From: a virus
Virus record (IMG/VR): IMGVR_UViG_3300005346_000067
Location: 1 to 25,329 of that record
Direction: 5' to 3' (one strand)
Length of the DNA: 25,329 bases
Part shown: positions 5,022 through 13,967 of the stretch, piece by piece
Layout: each line of letters opens with the position of its first letter
How positions within the stretch are numbered: position 1 is the stretch's first letter
Notes under the pieces: model-generated
Told to the model about the DNA's origin: nothing
The model's database searches: none
What the model saw: the letters and a program-made list of their open reading frames with translations, nothing else
Program-made: the position numbers and the translations under genes

Positions 5022-5175
5022 AATCCTTCCTCAACGGGTGAATTATCTCAATCGCCTTAGTCTCCGTATACATCGTTACCGCTTGGACACTTAGGTCGTC
5101 CATTAAAGCAAAAGGCCTATTCAACTTATTAGCCATTGAATGGGCCGCTTGTAACGCTACTAGTATATCATCCAC
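4978..5175 (-). CDS. Hypothetical protein, 65 aa, C-terminus uncertain
   Basis: Starts MDDILVALQAAHSMANKLNR, overlapping the stop of the membrane protein upstream. The N-terminal two thirds look like a real helix-strand protein; the last 17 residues (VRSRDGQREHFAN) overlap the next gene out of frame and are Arg-rich, so a lost base near 5020-5030 may have extended the ORF. No family recognised. Confidence 0.55.
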   Translation of the reverse strand: MDDILVALQAAHSMANKLNRPFALMDDLSVQAVTMYTETKAIEIIHPLRKDYVRSRDGQREHFAN

Positions 5176-5356
5176 AGCTTGGATTCCTATTTTCGTAATC
5201 CGGCCAGTGACCCTTACATACCATCTCGATATACAATTCGGCGCTATCTTCCTCTACCTCGATGTCTCCATTGCCAGCAATACCAAGGGCCAACAATACA
5301 AAGAGCAGCGCCATTAGTATTAGTGTGAGCTGTTGTACTTTCTTGTTGTCGTCCAT
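5168..5356 (-). CDS. Small membrane protein, 62 aa
   Basis: Starts at the ATG of a GTGATG pair behind a CTGGAGGGTAAGTG leader, one of the repeated start cassettes in this genome. Residues 1-8 are charged, followed by one strong transmembrane segment (LTLILMALLFVLLALGIAG, about residues 10-28), an acidic stretch (DIEVEEDSAELY) and a C-terminal part with two Cys (VCKGHW, NPSCG). Probably inner membrane with a periplasmic tail. No recognised family; not a typical holin because holin and lysozyme are encoded elsewhere. Confidence 0.6.
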   Translation of the reverse strand: MDDNKKVQQLTLILMALLFVLLALGIAGNGDIEVEEDSAELYIEMVCKGHWPDYENRNPSCG

Positions 5357-5380
5357 CACTTACCCTCCAGTAAAAGCCGC

Positions 5381-8357: not shown

Positions 8358-8668
8358 CAAGAGACGTTTTTCCCGACAGGTTTCCGACTATAATTTCCAG
8401 CGCATAGGTCCTCGGCCACTTCACTTACCCACCGCTTCCTTAGCCACTTCTCACCCCGGCTTCTCCTGTAAGTCAGCTCTGAATTAGAGCCATGACTCTG
8501 AATGTAACCATCATCCATCAATAAGCGCAGTAACTCGTTCATTCTACTAGCATGTTTGACCATTGTACATTTTTCAGCCATCTGCTTGATAGTGAACGCT
8601 TCGCCTGAGTTGTACAAATCAGTCAATAGAATCTCTTGCATCTGATCTTCAGTTTTAAAATTAGCCAT
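8357..8668 (-). CDS. Probable winged-helix/HTH protein, 103 aa
   Basis: MANFKTEDQMQEILLTDLYN then AFTIKQMAEKCTMVKHASRMNE-type helix-turn-helix (residues 27-60) and a wing-like segment (LLMDDGYIQSHGSNSELTYR), followed by a basic Arg/Lys tail. The pattern resembles a small winged helix reading DNA, but I do not recognise a named family. It overlaps the preceding replisome-like gene by 8 bases. Possibly part of replication initiation or transcription control. Confidence 0.6.
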   Translation of the reverse strand: MANFKTEDQMQEILLTDLYNSGEAFTIKQMAEKCTMVKHASRMNELLRLLMDDGYIQSHGSNSELTYRRSRGEKWLRKRWVSEVAEDLCAGNYSRKPVGKNVS

Positions 8669-9035
8669 CGAATGCCTGCCCGTATTTATTAATGAATACC
8701 TGTCTCATATACTCTTTCTCTGAACCTTCTAGCCAAGTTATATCAGTTAGGTCATCGAGGTTTGATCTTTGTCTCATAGTCTTGGGGCCATCTCCCCATG
8801 GCTTGGGGCCATCAATCTTTATTGGACTGCTGCCGCCTTTATCCTGCGCCCTCGATAACCATGAGTTAACAAACCGCTTAATGCCCTTTGAGGTCTTGCG
8901 CTTAGTTGGGTTAGCATCGAGCCAGCTTTCCATCTTCGCTAGCTCTAAAAACACATCAACCGCTGGGTAAGTCTTTTGCCATTGAATGATATCCGCGTCA
9001 TCTGCTTGCCACTCCTCGCCCGTGTTTAAGATCAT
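8661..9035 (-). CDS. Replisome-organiser-like C-terminal domain, stand-alone
   Basis: A 124-residue protein, MILNTGEEWQADDADIIQWQ, with WLDANPTKRKTSKGIKRFVN and NSWLSRAQDK around residues 38-67. This K-R-K-T..GI.RF..NWL.RAQ block is familiar as the C-terminal part of many phage replication-initiation (O-like/replisome organiser) proteins, where it follows a winged helix. Here it stands alone, with a separate possible winged-helix gene directly downstream. It starts with an ATGA overlap. Role in replication is inferred from that block only. Confidence 0.6.
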   Translation of the reverse strand: MILNTGEEWQADDADIIQWQKTYPAVDVFLELAKMESWLDANPTKRKTSKGIKRFVNSWLSRAQDKGGSSPIKIDGPKPWGDGPKTMRQRSNLDDLTDITWLEGSEKEYMRQVFINKYGQAFDG

Positions 9036-9187
9036 TTCCCCTCCTTCACCAACTCATCTCTAACCTTCTCGCAATCCTCTAACCGCCCCCTAAACACATA
9101 GTTAATAGCGTCACCAGAGAAAGTAGTCGGCACAACAGACTCAAGAATGTAATCGCCTCGGTCTGATGGTTTTATTTGGTATTCCAT
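9032..9187 (-). CDS. Hypothetical protein, 51 aa
   Basis: MEYQIKPSDRGDYILESVVP..., ending in a charged helix (EDCEKVRDELVKEGK). Start is set by a TGATG overlap with the gene before and a good AGGAGGTTGGG ribosome site; the stop overlaps the next start (ATGA). Not recognised. Tight coupling on both sides supports it being real. Confidence 0.6.
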   Translation of the reverse strand: MEYQIKPSDRGDYILESVVPTTFSGDAINYVFRGRLEDCEKVRDELVKEGK

Positions 9188-9450
9188 CACCCAACCTCCT
9201 GCATAGCTTTATCAATTGCATCACGCCAGTCGTCAACCATAAAACAATACAAGTACCGCCCATTGTCGTGTATGTCATACCAGCCGTCTTGCAACCACAC
9301 TCGAGCATTGTTAAGCGCAAGCCACTCTAGCCTGCGTCTGTCTGACTCAAGCTCATCAATGCGCTCTACAAGTTTTCTAACTGTAGCCGCGTTGTACAGT
9401 GGGTAACTCTGCGGAAGTTGTACGCACTTCTTCCATTCTTCATATGTCAT
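9187..9450 (-). CDS. Hypothetical helical/Trp-rich protein, 87 aa
   Basis: Start at the ATG of a GTGATG pair behind AGGAGGGTGAG. MTYEEWKKCVQLPQSYPLYN, then a coiled-coil-like part (VRKLVERIDELESDRRRLEW) and a Trp/Tyr-rich end (VWLQDGWYDIHDNGRYLYC). This architecture resembles small phage accessory proteins (Ead/Ea22-like), but the resemblance is loose. Function unknown. Confidence 0.6.
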   Translation of the reverse strand: MTYEEWKKCVQLPQSYPLYNAATVRKLVERIDELESDRRRLEWLALNNARVWLQDGWYDIHDNGRYLYCFMVDDWRDAIDKAMQEVG

Positions 9451-9461
9451 CACTCACCCTC

Positions 9462-9665
9462 CTAATATCCTTTTCTAATTAGGAACTCTTTTAACAGTGT
9501 TGCTTCTTCAGGGGTGAGGGTAATGCCATCAATCCCATAGACACAATCGTCTATTGATATTATCACTTTACCCCTGCCTTCAGGATCAAGCAAAAGGACC
9601 TTAAGATCTCGTTTATCTCGTGAAACACGCCATTGGCGACTGTCTTCAAATACTCTATCGCTCAT
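9462..9665 (-). CDS. Hypothetical protein, 67 aa
   Basis: MSDRVFEDSRQWRVSRDKRD... beta-rich, with an acidic loop (SIDDCVYGIDGITL) and a C-terminal helix (TPEEATLLKEFLIRKGY). Start chosen at the ATG overlapping the previous stop (TGATG) after the GGAAGGGTGAG ribosome site. The C-terminal 'LTPEEA..L..FL' pattern recurs in the 70-residue gene just upstream as 'LTFGEFDLLTVLM', suggesting the two may share a fold. No family name. Confidence 0.6.
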   Translation of the reverse strand: MSDRVFEDSRQWRVSRDKRDLKVLLLDPEGRGKVIISIDDCVYGIDGITLTPEEATLLKEFLIRKGY

Positions 9666-9993: not shown

Positions 9994-10191
9994 TCATGCG
10001 TTGCCCAAGTAGTACTCAGCGTACACCTTGTCATTGAAACGCCTGTGCCGGGTCTCTATCTCATAACCTTGCTCACGCAGTCTATAGACTCTAGCAGCCA
10101 GCCTCATGCAGCCGAATTTCTCTAGGGCCAAAAGCGGGGTCACTGCGTTCCCTTGGCGTAGGTAATCTAGGATTTGTTTTTCTTGGTTCAT
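9994..10191 (-). CDS. Small helix-turn-helix protein (HTH_39-like)
   Basis: A 65-residue protein, MNQEKQILDYLRQGNAVTPL, with LALEKFGCMRLAARVYRLRE and YEIETRHRRF. The pattern 'I..YL..G..VTPL.AL..FGC.RLAARI..LR..GY.I.T' is a well known small phage/prophage HTH domain family. It probably binds DNA as a dimer and is likely a regulator. Good ribosome site (CTGGAGGGCGAT before ATG). Its position right before the repeat region makes that region a natural target. Confidence 0.8.
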   Translation of the reverse strand: MNQEKQILDYLRQGNAVTPLLALEKFGCMRLAARVYRLREQGYEIETRHRRFNDKVYAEYYLGNA

Positions 10192-10216
10192 ATCGCCCTC
10201 CAGCGGTTGGTTGTAC

Positions 10217-10622: not shown

Positions 10623-10664
10623 GAGACAACGCAATTTAACTAGGCTCGACTAGGCGACTGATGA

Positions 10665-10694
10665 TTGCGGTTTGTAAAACTGGTGTGGTAAACT
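10665..10694 (+). promoter_or_regulatory. Possible plus-strand promoter (extended -10)
   Basis: Plus strand TTGCGG (10665-10670), 18-base spacer ending TGG, then TAAACT (10689-10694). The TGn before the -10 element makes it an extended -10 promoter; each hexamer matches consensus at four positions at best. It points toward the strong terminator at 10754-10791. Confidence 0.35.
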
Positions 10695-10699
10695 ACATT

Positions 10700-10791
10700 C
10701 ATCGTTGATCTCGCACTTCAATGATACTTCCTACGCACTCCCTCCAGTGCAACCCCCTTGGTTCTCCCTCCAGATCAAGGGGCTTTTTTTT
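10700..10791 (+). ncRNA. Candidate plus-strand small RNA, about 90 nt
   Basis: Defined only by the possible promoter upstream and the strong rho-independent terminator at its end. No ORF fits it. It would be antisense to the minus-strand leader upstream of the 67-residue gene and to the last bases of the Cro-like gene. It is the only place in the window where a plus-strand transcription unit can be proposed. It contains two CTCCCTCCAG copies (10738-10746 region and 10763-10773), whose complements look like ribosome-site sequence (CTGGAGGGAG). Confidence 0.3.
10754..10791 (+). terminator. Rho-independent terminator, plus orientation
   Basis: CCCCTTG (10754-10760) pairs with CAAGGGG (10776-10782) over a 15-base loop, followed by C and eight T on the plus strand. 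In the minus direction the hairpin is followed by a mixed sequence without a T tract, so it works for plus-strand transcripts. The T tract overlaps the stop codon of the Cro-like gene. Confidence 0.65.
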
Positions 10792-10978
10792 AATACTTGA
10801 TAAACTTCTCTACCTCAATATCCAAGGCCGCGCAGATCTTAACAATCGTTGACCACCTCAAATCATTCGCTTGCTTGTACTTGTGCACGTTCTGGGGAGT
10901 CACCCCGAGCAGTTTAGCTAACTGCCCGTTCGTGATTTCTGCCTCCGCCATAGCTGCCCTAACCTTGTTTCCTAACAT
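10790..10978 (-). CDS. Cro/C1-type helix-turn-helix regulator
   Basis: A 62-residue protein with an HTH_3/XRE fold: residues 1-62 include NGQLAKLLGVTPQNVHKYK (helix-turn-helix, about 17-36) and a C-terminal ICAALDIEVEKFIKY helix. Size and lack of any second domain match Cro-like repressors. Ribosome site AAGGAGTAGTAA before ATG. A short inverted repeat TGTACATACA at 11008-11017 in its leader could be an operator. There is no divergent CI-like gene, so it is not clearly a lysogeny switch. Confidence 0.85.
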   Translation of the reverse strand: MLGNKVRAAMAEAEITNGQLAKLLGVTPQNVHKYKQANDLRWSTIVKICAALDIEVEKFIKY

Positions 10979-11555: not shown

Positions 11556-11818
11556 TCAATTAAAAGGTATATCGTCCTCAAAGTCTTCTTCGACAATCTG
11601 TTTGGCCTTCTGAATTGCTGGCGTTGCAACTTCATTCTTGGGCGTGATTGAGAGTGAGAAAAACTTCTTACCCTGCTTGGACTCTTTTAACCCCAAGCCG
11701 ACAGGTAATGATCTACCCCGCCTACGTCCATCGAGCCAGTGAAGTCTGGGTGCTTTTCTGTGTCTTTCTTGTCGTTGCGAAATAAAACCCCGCGATTAGT
11801 GTTATCGTATTCCATCAT
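11556..11818 (-). CDS. SSB-like/DUF736-like single-strand DNA binding protein, frameshifted
   Basis: Too broken to appear as one frame. ATG at 11818 has an ATGA overlap with the exonuclease stop: MMEYDNTNRGVLFRNDKKDT, then EKHPDFTGSMDVGGVDHYLS, AWG; one base missing in GGGG near 11697 restores LKESKQGKKFFSLSITPKNE and the end QIVEEDFEDDIPF. An N-terminal small OB-like strand pattern and the acidic tail ending DDIPF match the protein-docking tip of bacterial SSBs. The final N codon may be due to a missing T in the T run. About 87 residues. It completes a typical annealase-exonuclease-SSB trio. Confidence 0.7.
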
Positions 11819-12417
11819 TTCTTACTCCATTTTAAAGTTTCCGTTTCGATTATTTCGACTGCGCGTGTAACTGCGTCAGCCAGTTTTTTGATGTACGCTT
11901 CGTCCCTATAGACTCGAACAATCAAATCTTCCATCGCCGGGTGATAACTCATAAAGTCCCACCACTCGCGGCCAGTTATAAACAGGCAGCCTTGTATTTG
12001 AGGGACGTACTTTCCGGGCACATCACCAGCCCTCAGATAAGAAACGTGCGTATGGGGTAGCGGACACTTCACCTCGATACCGCCCTCATCGCCTACAAGC
12101 CCGTCAGGACTCGCACCACACTCAAGCTCATCATGCAGGCACAGACCGACCTCGACCACATCAAAGCCAGTAGTGAACTCGTACAAGGCCTTGGCGGCGG
12201 GTTCTAATTCGTTACCCCGCGCCATTGCTTCGTTCGTGTAGAACTCTGGCAATTCTCCAGTGATCCTCTGGGCGATGAGTTCGTTGATATACCCATCGGC
12301 AGACGCGCTAGGCTTGCCTGTGGGTGTGATTAACTTTCCAAAGTTGCTAGCAGTAGGCTTTCCTAATCGGCTCTGTAACCACTCCTGAGAGCCTTGTACA
12401 TGATTACTTATTCGCAT
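11815..12417 (-). CDS. YqaJ-type/lambda-Exo-like recombination exonuclease
   Basis: A 200-residue PD-(D/E)xK nuclease. The conserved opening SQEWLQSRLGKPTASNF (10-26) contains the usual W..R.G..TAS; E70/E72 in ARGNELEP, D105 in CGASPDGLV and E115-V-K117 in GGIEVKCP are the metal-binding set, followed by KYVPQIQGCLFITGREWWDF. This is the 5'-3' exonuclease partner of the annealase encoded just before it, resecting ends for single-strand annealing. Its start overlaps the ERF gene by 14 bases; length is normal. Confidence 0.93.
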   Translation of the reverse strand: MRISNHVQGSQEWLQSRLGKPTASNFGKLITPTGKPSASADGYINELIAQRITGELPEFYTNEAMARGNELEPAAKALYEFTTGFDVVEVGLCLHDELECGASPDGLVGDEGGIEVKCPLPHTHVSYLRAGDVPGKYVPQIQGCLFITGREWWDFMSYHPAMEDLIVRVYRDEAYIKKLADAVTRAVEIIETETLKWSKK

Positions 12418-12994
12418 CTTTTAGCTTCCTGTTCAGTGCTGCCATTGCTTTGTCGAACTGACTAGATAGCATCGCCTCGACTCCCTCAATATGAAACGCC
12501 TTGCAAAACTTCTCTATATCCGAATCGGTCTTGTCTAGCAGGTCGTAAATGACTGCTAACTGTGACTCGTCAATAACACTTGGCTTTTCGTGTTGATTGG
12601 TGGCGTCAGCCTCATTTGTGTCATCGATACAAAACAGACCGTTCAATGCGTATTTTCTAGCATACGAACTAGCCGAGCCTGTAACTTGTGAATCGTCCAT
12701 GCCTTTTCTATCTAATGACTCGCGAGCAAATGCCGTAGTCGATACAACTTGAGAGCTACTGCTTATAGATACAGTAGCCCTAACGTATACCCTGCCGCCT
12801 ACTTCTACAATGTCATCGGATATAGTTAGCACAAGGTCACCAAGAAGCGGTTTGACCGCCTCTAGGATATCTTCGCAACTGCGGTATTTGTAGCCGCCAA
12901 ACTTATTCATCTGTCCTTTTGGTGCCTTCAGTTTCTGCTGAATTGCCGCCAGTTTCTGCTGAATTGGAGCCGGTTGTAATGTTAAATCACTCAT
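12404..12994 (-). CDS. erf: ERF-family single-strand annealing protein
   Basis: A 196-residue protein with the ERF (P22 Erf) core: MNKFGGYKYRSCEDILEAVK (29-48), PLL, and QVTGSASSYARKYALNGLFC (about 103-122) followed by IDDTNEADATN. The N-terminus has a short internal repeat (two copies of IQQKLxA). ERF pairs complementary single strands during phage recombination and circularisation. The C-terminal ~60 residues form a helical variable tail. It is the first large gene of the early operon and is overlapped by the exonuclease. Confidence 0.93.
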   Translation of the reverse strand: MSDLTLQPAPIQQKLAAIQQKLKAPKGQMNKFGGYKYRSCEDILEAVKPLLGDLVLTISDDIVEVGGRVYVRATVSISSSSQVVSTTAFARESLDRKGMDDSQVTGSASSYARKYALNGLFCIDDTNEADATNQHEKPSVIDESQLAVIYDLLDKTDSDIEKFCKAFHIEGVEAMLSSQFDKAMAALNRKLKDANK

Positions 12995-13314
12995 ATTTTG
13001 CCCTCCTGAGCCAGTCTAATTGCACCGACCATCGAGTCGGCAAACGTGTCGTACATTAATTGTGGATCGTTAATCTCGTAGGCGAGTAGCATCGTTTCCT
13101 GATACTTGTCAATGTCAACCGCGTACTGGCCAGTAACAATTTCGCTTGCGAAACTCCAGTCTGCTTCCGCCCTATCTCTAACATAAGTCTCAGCACACTC
13201 CGCGCACCTGATATGCTCCTCTCGCTTTAAGGGCTCAAGGCAAACCGAGCATTCGTGATCGACTTCTCTCCAATCCTCGGGACTAACGTGGCTCTCAGCT
13301 AGTAAAATTTTCAT
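12991..13314 (-). CDS. Small zinc-ribbon protein, 107 aa
   Basis: Start at MKILLAESHVSPEDWREVD is chosen because of a strong AAGGAGGAAGTT ribosome site; the frame is open 20 codons further but without a site. Cys pairs CSVC and CAEC (HECSVCLEPLKREEHIRCAE) form one zinc ribbon near residues 20-38; the rest is helical and acidic (DKYQETMLLAYEINDPQLMY). The stop overlaps the ERF start (TGAG/ATGAG region). No recognised family. As second gene of the early operon it may be a regulator or host-takeover protein. Confidence 0.65.
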   Translation of the reverse strand: MKILLAESHVSPEDWREVDHECSVCLEPLKREEHIRCAECAETYVRDRAEADWSFASEIVTGQYAVDIDKYQETMLLAYEINDPQLMYDTFADSMVGAIRLAQEGKI

Positions 13315-13454: not shown

Positions 13455-13518
13455 CAGATAGGTTGATTTATTTTTTAAGTTTTTTTGTGTTTTACTAGGG
13501 GGGTGTTAATTGCAATTT

Positions 13519-13540
13519 GCCCACTTCGGTGGGCTTTTTT
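13519..13540 (+). terminator. Rho-independent terminator with TTCG loop, plus orientation
   Basis: GCCCAC (13519-13524), loop TTCG, GTGGGC (13529-13534), then six T on the plus strand: a classical UUCG-tetraloop terminator. On the minus strand it is followed by AAATTGC without a T tract. The T tract contains the stop codon of the lysozyme gene. No plus-strand gene or clear plus-strand promoter precedes it. Confidence 0.7.
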
Positions 13541-13967
13541 ATTTCAGGTACTGGCCGGTCTCGATCATGTAAGAGATTTTCGTTTGGCCCGGTTGGGGGT
13601 CTGGTTTTGCCCACTTCGATCTTAGGCACTCAGAGGCAGCCTGGGAGTATTTCCCCTCGGCCAGATACTTGAGGGTCTTTTTTAAACTCCAAGAAGTTTT
13701 GGCAGGCCGAGCTGGAATAGCATCGATACCAAAGCTTCTTGTCTGATCTGATCTAGATCCATAAACCAAGAAAACACCTCGAGCTCACGGTAGCATCTCT
13801 CAATGTCGTTTCTCAGCAAGTAATTAATCTCATCGTCTGACAGCCCAAAAACCTTTCTCTGGGTCGAGACAACGCCCTACACCGACTGTTATATAACCCA
13901 GGTGGTCTTCGTATGCCCACTTAGATACACCCTCTTGCCGGCGTAGCATTTCGATTAGGTTTTTCAT
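13539..13967 (-). CDS. T4-type lysozyme (GH24 endolysin), several frameshifts
   Basis: Cell-wall muramidase for host lysis. MKNLIEMLRRQEG then SKWAYEDHLGYITVGVGR: the catalytic triad of T4 lysozyme is present as E12, D21 and T27. An extra T near 13864 ends the first frame; the next reads GLSDDEINYLLRNDIERCYR and QEALVSMLFQLGLPK; further indels near 13695-13700, 13685 and 13575-13600 lead into TLKYLAEGKYSQAASECLRS, then a segment that reads best as QTPNRAK, and finally ISYMIETGQYLK. Corrected length is about 142 residues, normal for this family. No signal peptide or SAR helix at the N-terminus, so it needs the holin. ATGA overlap with the gene before. Confidence 0.88.

Follow-up and report, generated by a model that had tools for sequence, protein, structure and literature searches.

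A putative small RNA locus next to a Cro-like gene

The window, i.e. the whole stretch of 25,329 bases analysed here, is a complete virus record that is probably a genome fragment. Its head module, with terminase, portal and head-closure families, is P22-like, and by terminase the nearest among the matches listed were metagenomic P22-like phages and Xanthomonas phage PBR31. In tblastn searches with the exonuclease, the terminase and the head-closure protein, none of the matches listed exceeded 70% identity. The RNA described below is flanked on one side by genes for ERF, the exonuclease, a short DDIPF-ending product, an HNH protein and a Cro/XRE-like protein, and on the other side by small genes, a winged-HTH gene and NinB. 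A phage integrase was found in none of 16 records (the window and related ones, possibly fragments) and an S24-type repressor domain in none of 12 incomplete records, and the group may therefore be lytic. Compared with their intact counterparts in relatives, some genes of the window seem broken up or truncated, namely in the portal region (two overlapping frames; 871-2960), the short DDIPF gene (11556-11800) and an endolysin-like region (13539-13900); assembly errors were not distinguished from real frame changes.

Direct reading of the plus strand revealed a promoter at 10665-10694, composed of a -35-like TTGCGG (10665-10670), an 18-nt spacer and an extended -10 element TGG-TAAACT (10686-10694). 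It precedes a small RNA of about 92 nt (10700-10791, plus strand; 5' end inferred), which rests on folding, homologs and covariation and comprises three hairpins: H1 (10701-10725) with the loop UCUCGCACU, H2 (10735-10750; GCACU-CCCUCC-AGUGC), the loop of which is an anti-ribosome-site hexamer, and the terminator hairpin H3 (10754-10791), which again exposes CCCUCC in its loop (10766-10771). The H3 stem is formed by CCCCTTG (10754-10760) and CAAGGGG (10776-10782) and is followed by a C and a T8 run (10784-10791). An earlier sequence-only reading had proposed that an extended -10 promoter and a T8 terminator frame an RNA without ORF, and had pointed to two CTCCCTCCAG copies; the direct reading bears out this arrangement, and both copies were located, at 10738-10747 and 10764-10773. 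The plus-strand RNA folds at -26.8 kcal/mol (z = -5.2; 0/200 shuffles as low) with both CCCTCC hexamers as hairpin loops, and the minus-strand fold of the same interval has a z of only -0.6. No ORF of at least 50 aa lies inside the interval. An ATG within H1 (10721, plus strand) opens 43 codons; a peptide starting there was rejected, as no ribosome site lies upstream, the start is missing in the relatives L015, L016 and L020, and the distances between the hairpins vary by lengths other than multiples of three.

No Rfam match at the gathering threshold was obtained for the window, nor for 11 relatives apart from one tRNA, and a permissive search of the interval gave a best match at chance level (E 2.4, minus strand). 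A promoter scan of the window did not list the RNA promoter among its sites, and terminator-like sites were found at near-chance frequency (13 in 10 kb, 8.1 expected). Window scans alone are thus unconvincing, and it is the conservation in relatives that raises the RNA above chance.

The gene convergent to the RNA (10790-10978, minus strand) encodes an XRE/Cro-like protein (PF13443, Cro/C1-type HTH, E 2.7e-10), which agrees with the proposed position of the RNA beside a Cro-like gene. Its stop codon lies inside the T run, so that the RNA fills the gap between this stop codon and its own promoter and shares no more than 1-2 nt with the XRE gene. In all 23 members of the family described below the RNA 3' end and the stop codon of the convergent ORF are no more than 3 nt apart, and PF13443 scored above cut-off in all nine convergent proteins tested, which were picked to cover different types. 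The RNA had also been proposed to be antisense to the leader of the next operon. This holds for read-through transcripts from the XRE gene, whereas the leader itself would be affected only if the next gene block lacks a promoter of its own downstream of this position.

Two inverted repeats frame the promoter. Repeat A (GATGATTG, 10660-10667, plus strand) overlaps the -35 element and is the inverted partner of repeat B (CATTCATC, 10696-10703, plus strand), which spans the probable transcription start as inferred from its distance to the -10 element. The sequence of A and B varies between groups of phages and agrees within each phage; in eight group representatives, the match of A to the B of its own phage (8.4) exceeded that to the B of other phages (5.3; 1/20000 permutations). 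Judged from its sequence the pair looks like an operator, from which we infer that the timing of the RNA during infection is probably switched. The XRE protein as the repressor acting on these repeats was weakened as an idea by L110, where L024-type repeats accompany an L112-type XRE, and by L269, which has an L024-type XRE but window-type repeats. In these recombinants a given XRE type no longer goes with a given repeat type, so the regulator is left open; the repeats travel with the promoter. The two phages are mosaics: in L269 (2110-2187) a window-like promoter is joined to an L024-like RNA body and XRE gene, and in L110 (4662-4740) the L112-type XRE gene is found with the L024-type promoter repeats. 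The upstream repeat region of several class 1 RNAs also contains a partial inverted copy of the H1 loop (TGCGA).

Directly upstream of the RNA promoter, on the gene strand, a two-hairpin element with compensatory changes was observed in 11 distinct sequences (L015 4058, L016 3730, L017 7186, L019 2770, L023 5504, L096 7275 and others). It consists of CTAACGGGCGTTAG or a near form followed by CTGGGG...CCCCAG, CCGAGG...CCTCGG or CTTGGG...CCCAAG, and possibly serves the next gene block as a structured leader.

Conservation of the RNA in related phages

Homologs of the exonuclease (best 80 of 111) pointed to loci in which the XRE gene and the next gene enclose a similar region, and an H1 pattern together with a covariance model (R1) brought the family to 13 distinct sequences. 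The H1 pattern had hit 32 loci, comprising six new members, five known contigs and 21 loci that seemed unrelated by eye. A second protein scan (best 80 of 172; R1 was run on 70, the remaining ten being contigs already included) added L282, L268, L269, L278 and L273. The resulting class 1a contains 18 distinct sequences, the window and 17 on related viral contigs, with identical copies counted once. Among the 15 exonuclease loci closest to the window (L014-L028), eight have a class 1a RNA, four lack it despite sufficient room (L021, L025-L027) and three end before the place.

More diverged members were assigned to class 1b, which has eight loci and four distinct RNAs, five of the loci being identical (L305, L302, L316, L318, L320, L328, L289 and L290; 22.7-29.4 bits, E 5e-5 to 3e-3). 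They occupy the same place and have a TATAAT or TATACT -10 element, the H1 loop UUCGCAC and an H2 that is C-rich but different. A -10-like hexamer, picked by eye, stands directly before the RNA in 23/23 members, the variants being TAAACT, TATACT, TACACT, CAAACT, TAAAGT, TATGCT and TATAAT. Conservation of promoter, terminator and C-rich loop in relatives had been suggested as a check of the sequence-only reading, and all three are conserved.

Other searches were unproductive. The two-copy CTCCCTCCAG pattern hit 11 loci in viral contigs, all of them unrelated repeats or other sequence, and was discarded. When 3.5 kb were compared with the phage collection by blastn, a 113-nt match inside the HNH gene was the sole result. 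R1 found nothing in four P22-like relatives and no RNA at E 0.001 near five distant exonuclease homologs from a genome-contig scan. No match was obtained in 369 sampled genomes from the class to which G017 belongs, which is weak evidence as the search had no positive control and used stricter filters.

The structure was assessed on an alignment of 23 sequences (22 distinct) in which 89.9% of the cells pair. Both sides had changed in 14 of the 18 pairs, among them 6/7 in H1 and 4/5 in H2, and 0/500 shuffles reached the covariation score; structures slid along the alignment kept only two to four such pairs. As the alignment was model-guided, i.e. fitted to the structure, this result leans towards the structure. 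In a first alignment, in which H2 was misplaced in some rows, the RNAalifold consensus lacked H2 and little covariation was seen.

In the lowest-energy fold, CCCUCC is wholly unpaired in a hairpin loop in all 18 class 1a RNAs. The hairpin that carries it differs: it is both H2 and H3 in the window and L112, H2 only in, for example, L096, L105, L119, L278 and L273, and H3 only in, for example, L024, L018, L015 and L020. A loop that stays constant while its carrier is free and the stems drift has the appearance of a pairing seed. In class 1b the hexamer is absent in three of five rows and partly paired in the other two. The H1 loop UCGCAC or a near form (CGCAC in L278, UCGCAA in L273) is likewise kept despite stem changes, with L020 as an exception.

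The sequence-only reading would have been refuted by a structure that evolves only as a minus-strand element, which is not what was observed. In 19 of the 23 aligned members the terminator stem is immediately followed by a T run on the plus strand; in the four with a tetraloop terminator, L096, L105, L119 and L278, this run is weak or displaced by a few bases. The register of H1 is certain, and this hairpin contains six G-U and no A-C cells when read as plus strand, although few independent events underlie these numbers. Seven A-C cells in alignment columns 84/108, at the end of H3, were judged from the rows to be register errors and excluded. The comparison of fold energies between strands was rejected as a guide to direction; it leans to the minus strand, which in 17/22 members has a lowest-energy fold equal to or below that of the plus strand.

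Ribosome-site usage and predicted pairing

The complement of the repeated motif had been said to resemble a ribosome-site type that recurs in this phage, and GGAGGG is indeed enriched in phages carrying the RNA. A simple script defined initiation regions as an ATG with an ORF of at least 45 codons and a purine-rich site. GGAGGG was present in 63/334 such regions of the 18 class 1a phages and in 17/978 regions of 114 related loci without an assigned class; an earlier count with 13 class 1a phages had given 53/281 and 12/500. Counted by gene family, the site occurred in 28/117 class 1a families compared with 13/236 unassigned ones (p = 1.5e-6). As many of the unassigned loci are fragments, some may hide an RNA. 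Six near relatives without a class 1a match were intermediate (6/68 regions); two of them end before the RNA place and two carry another C-rich RNA candidate. GGAGG sites were followed by a further G in 53/84 cases in class 1a, in 13/73 in 65 distant relatives and in 6/13 in the near relatives. The usual anti-Shine-Dalgarno end of 16S rRNA is CACCUCC, which leaves the sixth base of GGAGGG unpaired, whereas the loop of the RNA matches this base.

The preference is confined to part of the genes. GGAGGG precedes 5/30 early and 0/23 late genes in the window, and 22/115 early and 0/10 late genes in 12 relatives, and among 21 early gene families with homologs it was seen in no member of 14 and in 1/9 of another. 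In class 1b phages it was absent (0/66 sites), and a match of their sites to their own loops was not shown. Since the phages share ancestry, site and loop preferences may be co-inherited without function; the family-level test reduces this concern without removing it.

Pairing energies were calculated net of opening costs, and random minus-strand segments served for comparison (median -2.4, 5% point -8.0, lowest -11.9 kcal/mol). Of the 21 early leaders of the window, ten reached -7 kcal/mol or lower and eight passed the random 5% point, the other 11 being weaker than -7; none of the eight late leaders fell below -5 kcal/mol. The best random segment paired better than every leader. All sites named here lie on the minus strand and belong to candidate targets. 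The best of the 29 leaders was that of the gene at 5168-5356 (CUGGAGGG at 5363-5370; -10.7 kcal/mol). The winged-HTH gene (9994-10191; PF14090) also has CUGGAGGG as ribosome site (10196-10203), an 8-nt complement to the loop with -9.2 kcal/mol, and GGAGGG is present in 7/10 relatives having this gene. For erf (12404-12994; PF04404, ERF), -9.4 kcal/mol was predicted at GGAGGG 13001-13006, and 8/10 relatives having the gene share the site. The gene at 8661-9035 (GGAGGG 9039-9044) reached -9.5 kcal/mol with the site in only 1/9 relatives, and the gene at 9187-9450 (GGAGGG 9457-9462) -7.2 kcal/mol. Six leaders had been named in advance as possible partners; they gave -7.2 to -10.7 kcal/mol, four of them passing the 5% point and none surpassing the best random segment. 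The idea that the RNA pairs with several phage ribosome sites is hence supported by predicted energies and by the enrichment of GGAGGG, and neither pairing nor repression in cells has been shown.

In seven exonuclease relatives without a class 1 RNA, an unrelated and shorter RNA of about 46 nt was identified on the opposite strand. This class 2, to which a wider scan added L263, comprises at least eight sequences (L052, L055, L069, L079, L080, L082, L092 and L263) and shows an extended -10 element (TGCTATACT or TGCTATAAT), a hairpin with the loop UAUCGCUCC on a stem of ACCTC/GAGGT, ACCAC/GTGGT or similar, and a terminator. Its 3' end was checked in four loci and lay in each of them 3-4 nt away from the stop codon of a short convergent gene that is located behind the exonuclease and whose product ends in IPF, as in the window. 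GGAGCGA, the complement of the UAUCGCUCC loop, was found in 14/126 initiation regions of class 2 phages, compared with 2/978 elsewhere and 0/334 in class 1a; by family the counts were 7/49 and 2/236 (p = 8e-5). GGAGGG was found in none of the 126 class 2 regions. These counts were not blind, as the match of loop and site was noticed first and counted afterwards. The GGAGCGA site precedes erf in 6/8 loci (PF04404 in both proteins tested) and a NinB-like gene in L069 and L080 (PF05772 for L069, the one tested).

Further RNA candidates were noted. A second one on the plus strand of the window (13490-13545) has a weak -10 element and GTGTTAATTGCAATTT, followed by GCCCACTTCGGTGGGC and T6, and its core recurs in seven relatives (L014, L022, L023, L025, L026, L110 and L269). 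L025 and L026, which lack class 1, have an opposite-strand terminated candidate about 1.3 kb upstream of the exonuclease end, with a TATAAT -10 element, a C-rich single strand and, by eye, a possible CCUCC hairpin loop. A third candidate, the hairpin ACGCGC...GCGCGT about 1.45-1.68 kb past the exonuclease (L047, L059 and others), was dropped: because its loop varies (AATCCC, AATCAA or GAATGGACTA) and, by eye, a same-strand ORF seems to precede it, it looks like the terminator of that ORF.

Interpretation and relation to known systems

Since two different RNAs each match the site variant of their own phage, the best explanation is that the class 1 RNA is an anti-Shine-Dalgarno regulator which lowers the translation of a set of phage early genes. 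We consider this probable, with expression and repression untested. The proposed mechanism starts from a terminated RNA of about 92 nt, whose transcription is inferred and whose conserved structure presents CCCUCC as a loop on one or two hairpins. The loop is predicted to pair with GGAGGG, often within CUGGAGGG, at several early genes, chiefly erf and the winged-HTH gene. An occupied site would block 30S binding and might so lower early-gene translation, alone or together with decay. From the enrichment it may further be inferred that the phage marks its targets by a site extension that is matched fully by the RNA and not by the usual 16S rRNA end. As to timing, the RNA could act as an early brake that is later lifted or as an early-to-late switch, its promoter presumably being timed by an unidentified regulator. 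Against the anti-Shine-Dalgarno regulator stands the short loop seed of six bases. A more far-reaching version is a private translational regulon, in which a GGAGGG or GGAGCGA address and an exactly complementary loop co-evolve, the whole set can be switched off together, and the arrangement arose on two or more occasions within this early region, with the RNA always ending at a convergent stop codon; this remains a tentative proposal.

The constant position of the RNA invites a different explanation, in which an OOP-like cis regulator, or merely its transcription, acts on the convergent transcript through collision, read-through pairing or setting of the 3' end. The RNA end within 3 nt of the XRE stop codon (23/23) and the class 2 ends 3-4 nt from a stop codon (4/4) fit this well, and lambda oop adjoins cII likewise (excerpt of PMC5869508). 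We nevertheless regard it as unlikely, as the overlap with coding sequence is almost nil compared with the 52 bases of oop and cII given in the same excerpt, and as the retention of the CCCUCC loop and the match to ribosome sites in two unrelated RNAs would stay unexplained. The loop could also be aimed at host mRNAs with GGAGG-type sites in the course of host takeover, given that CCUCC complements any strong ribosome site and that numerous host mRNAs are targeted by alphaproteobacterial RNAs carrying such loops (excerpt of PMC10746234). That each of two unrelated RNAs matches the site variant of its own phage speaks against host targets, if only indirectly as the host is unknown, and we think such targeting quite unlikely.

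Two remaining explanations dispense with a plus-strand regulator. If the minus-strand structure were the working one, GGAGGG loops in a leader or 3' UTR might serve, for instance, CsrA/RsmA-type binding or as a decoy. Complementary hairpins with such loops are possible, and they fold as low or lower in 17/22 members; the z of only -0.6 in the window, the T run (19/23) and the -10 element on the plus strand, and six G-U cells against no A-C cell in H1 make this very improbable. A plain terminator and promoter pair with a chance likeness to ribosome sites would be in keeping with window scan counts near chance and with a two-copy pattern that hit unrelated sequence in 11/11 viral loci. This reading was already disfavoured and is hardly credible in view of the covariation, the position and the loop retention across 23 members.

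The anti-Shine-Dalgarno regulator has counterparts among bacterial RNAs. Cuckoo (CcsR) RNAs are built like NfeR1 and alpha-r14. NfeR1 has several hairpins with differing stems in which redundant anti-Shine-Dalgarno motifs stay unpaired, and blocks translation initiation, as described in an excerpt of PMC10746234. The likeness to NfeR1, alpha-r14 and the cuckoo RNAs, an anti-Shine-Dalgarno motif in the loops of hairpins with unlike stems, is met by the phage RNA. The motif itself differs, being CCUCCUCCC in those RNAs and CCCUCC(AG) in the phage RNA. Moreover, NfeR1 and the cuckoo RNAs reside on bacterial chromosomes, whereas the phage RNA lies in an early region, its motif matches the preferred site of the phage itself, and it had no Rfam match (the presence of these families in Rfam 15 was unchecked). 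The sibling RNAs SisA-D of Caulobacter share a common 10-mer with an anti-Shine-Dalgarno signature and have many targets (excerpt of PMC12559287); they differ in being bacterial and studied through Hfq.

Among phage RNAs, the likeness to OOP lies in a short, terminated RNA that is convergent with an early regulatory gene (23/23 members). Lambda OOP causes RNase III-dependent decay of its target mRNA and is under LexA control. The short terminated OOP RNA of lambda and P22, with its place opposite an early-region regulatory gene, is described in excerpts of PMC5869508 and PMC12197685, with P22 oop in one of PMC13397905; lambda oop overlaps cII in antisense over 52 bases (excerpt of PMC5869508). 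The phage RNA lacks such an antisense overlap with the 3' coding part of the gene, sharing 1-2 nt with it in the window, and its conserved feature is a loop suited to action in trans. The RNAs sar of P22 and C4 of P1/P7 silence ant, C4 at the ribosome site and probably via loops (excerpt of PMC12197685). They act on this one gene, whereas several leaders match the phage RNA (ant homologs were not searched for), and no start site lies opposite the phage RNA.

No description of this RNA was found in the open-access literature, subscription papers and preprints being outside the search. It is a new RNA family of an already known kind, which would work like NfeR1 and C4, sits like OOP and is by the tests a member of none of them. 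OOP, sar and C4 each silence one gene in a temperate phage (excerpt of PMC12197685); by contrast, the RNA described here would control several early genes as a set, with the ribosome site itself as its point of action. If this is true, the ribosome-site sequence of a phage carries an address beyond its strength, and such RNAs could be searched for via the complement of a phage's ribosome-site consensus in a terminator-linked hairpin loop.
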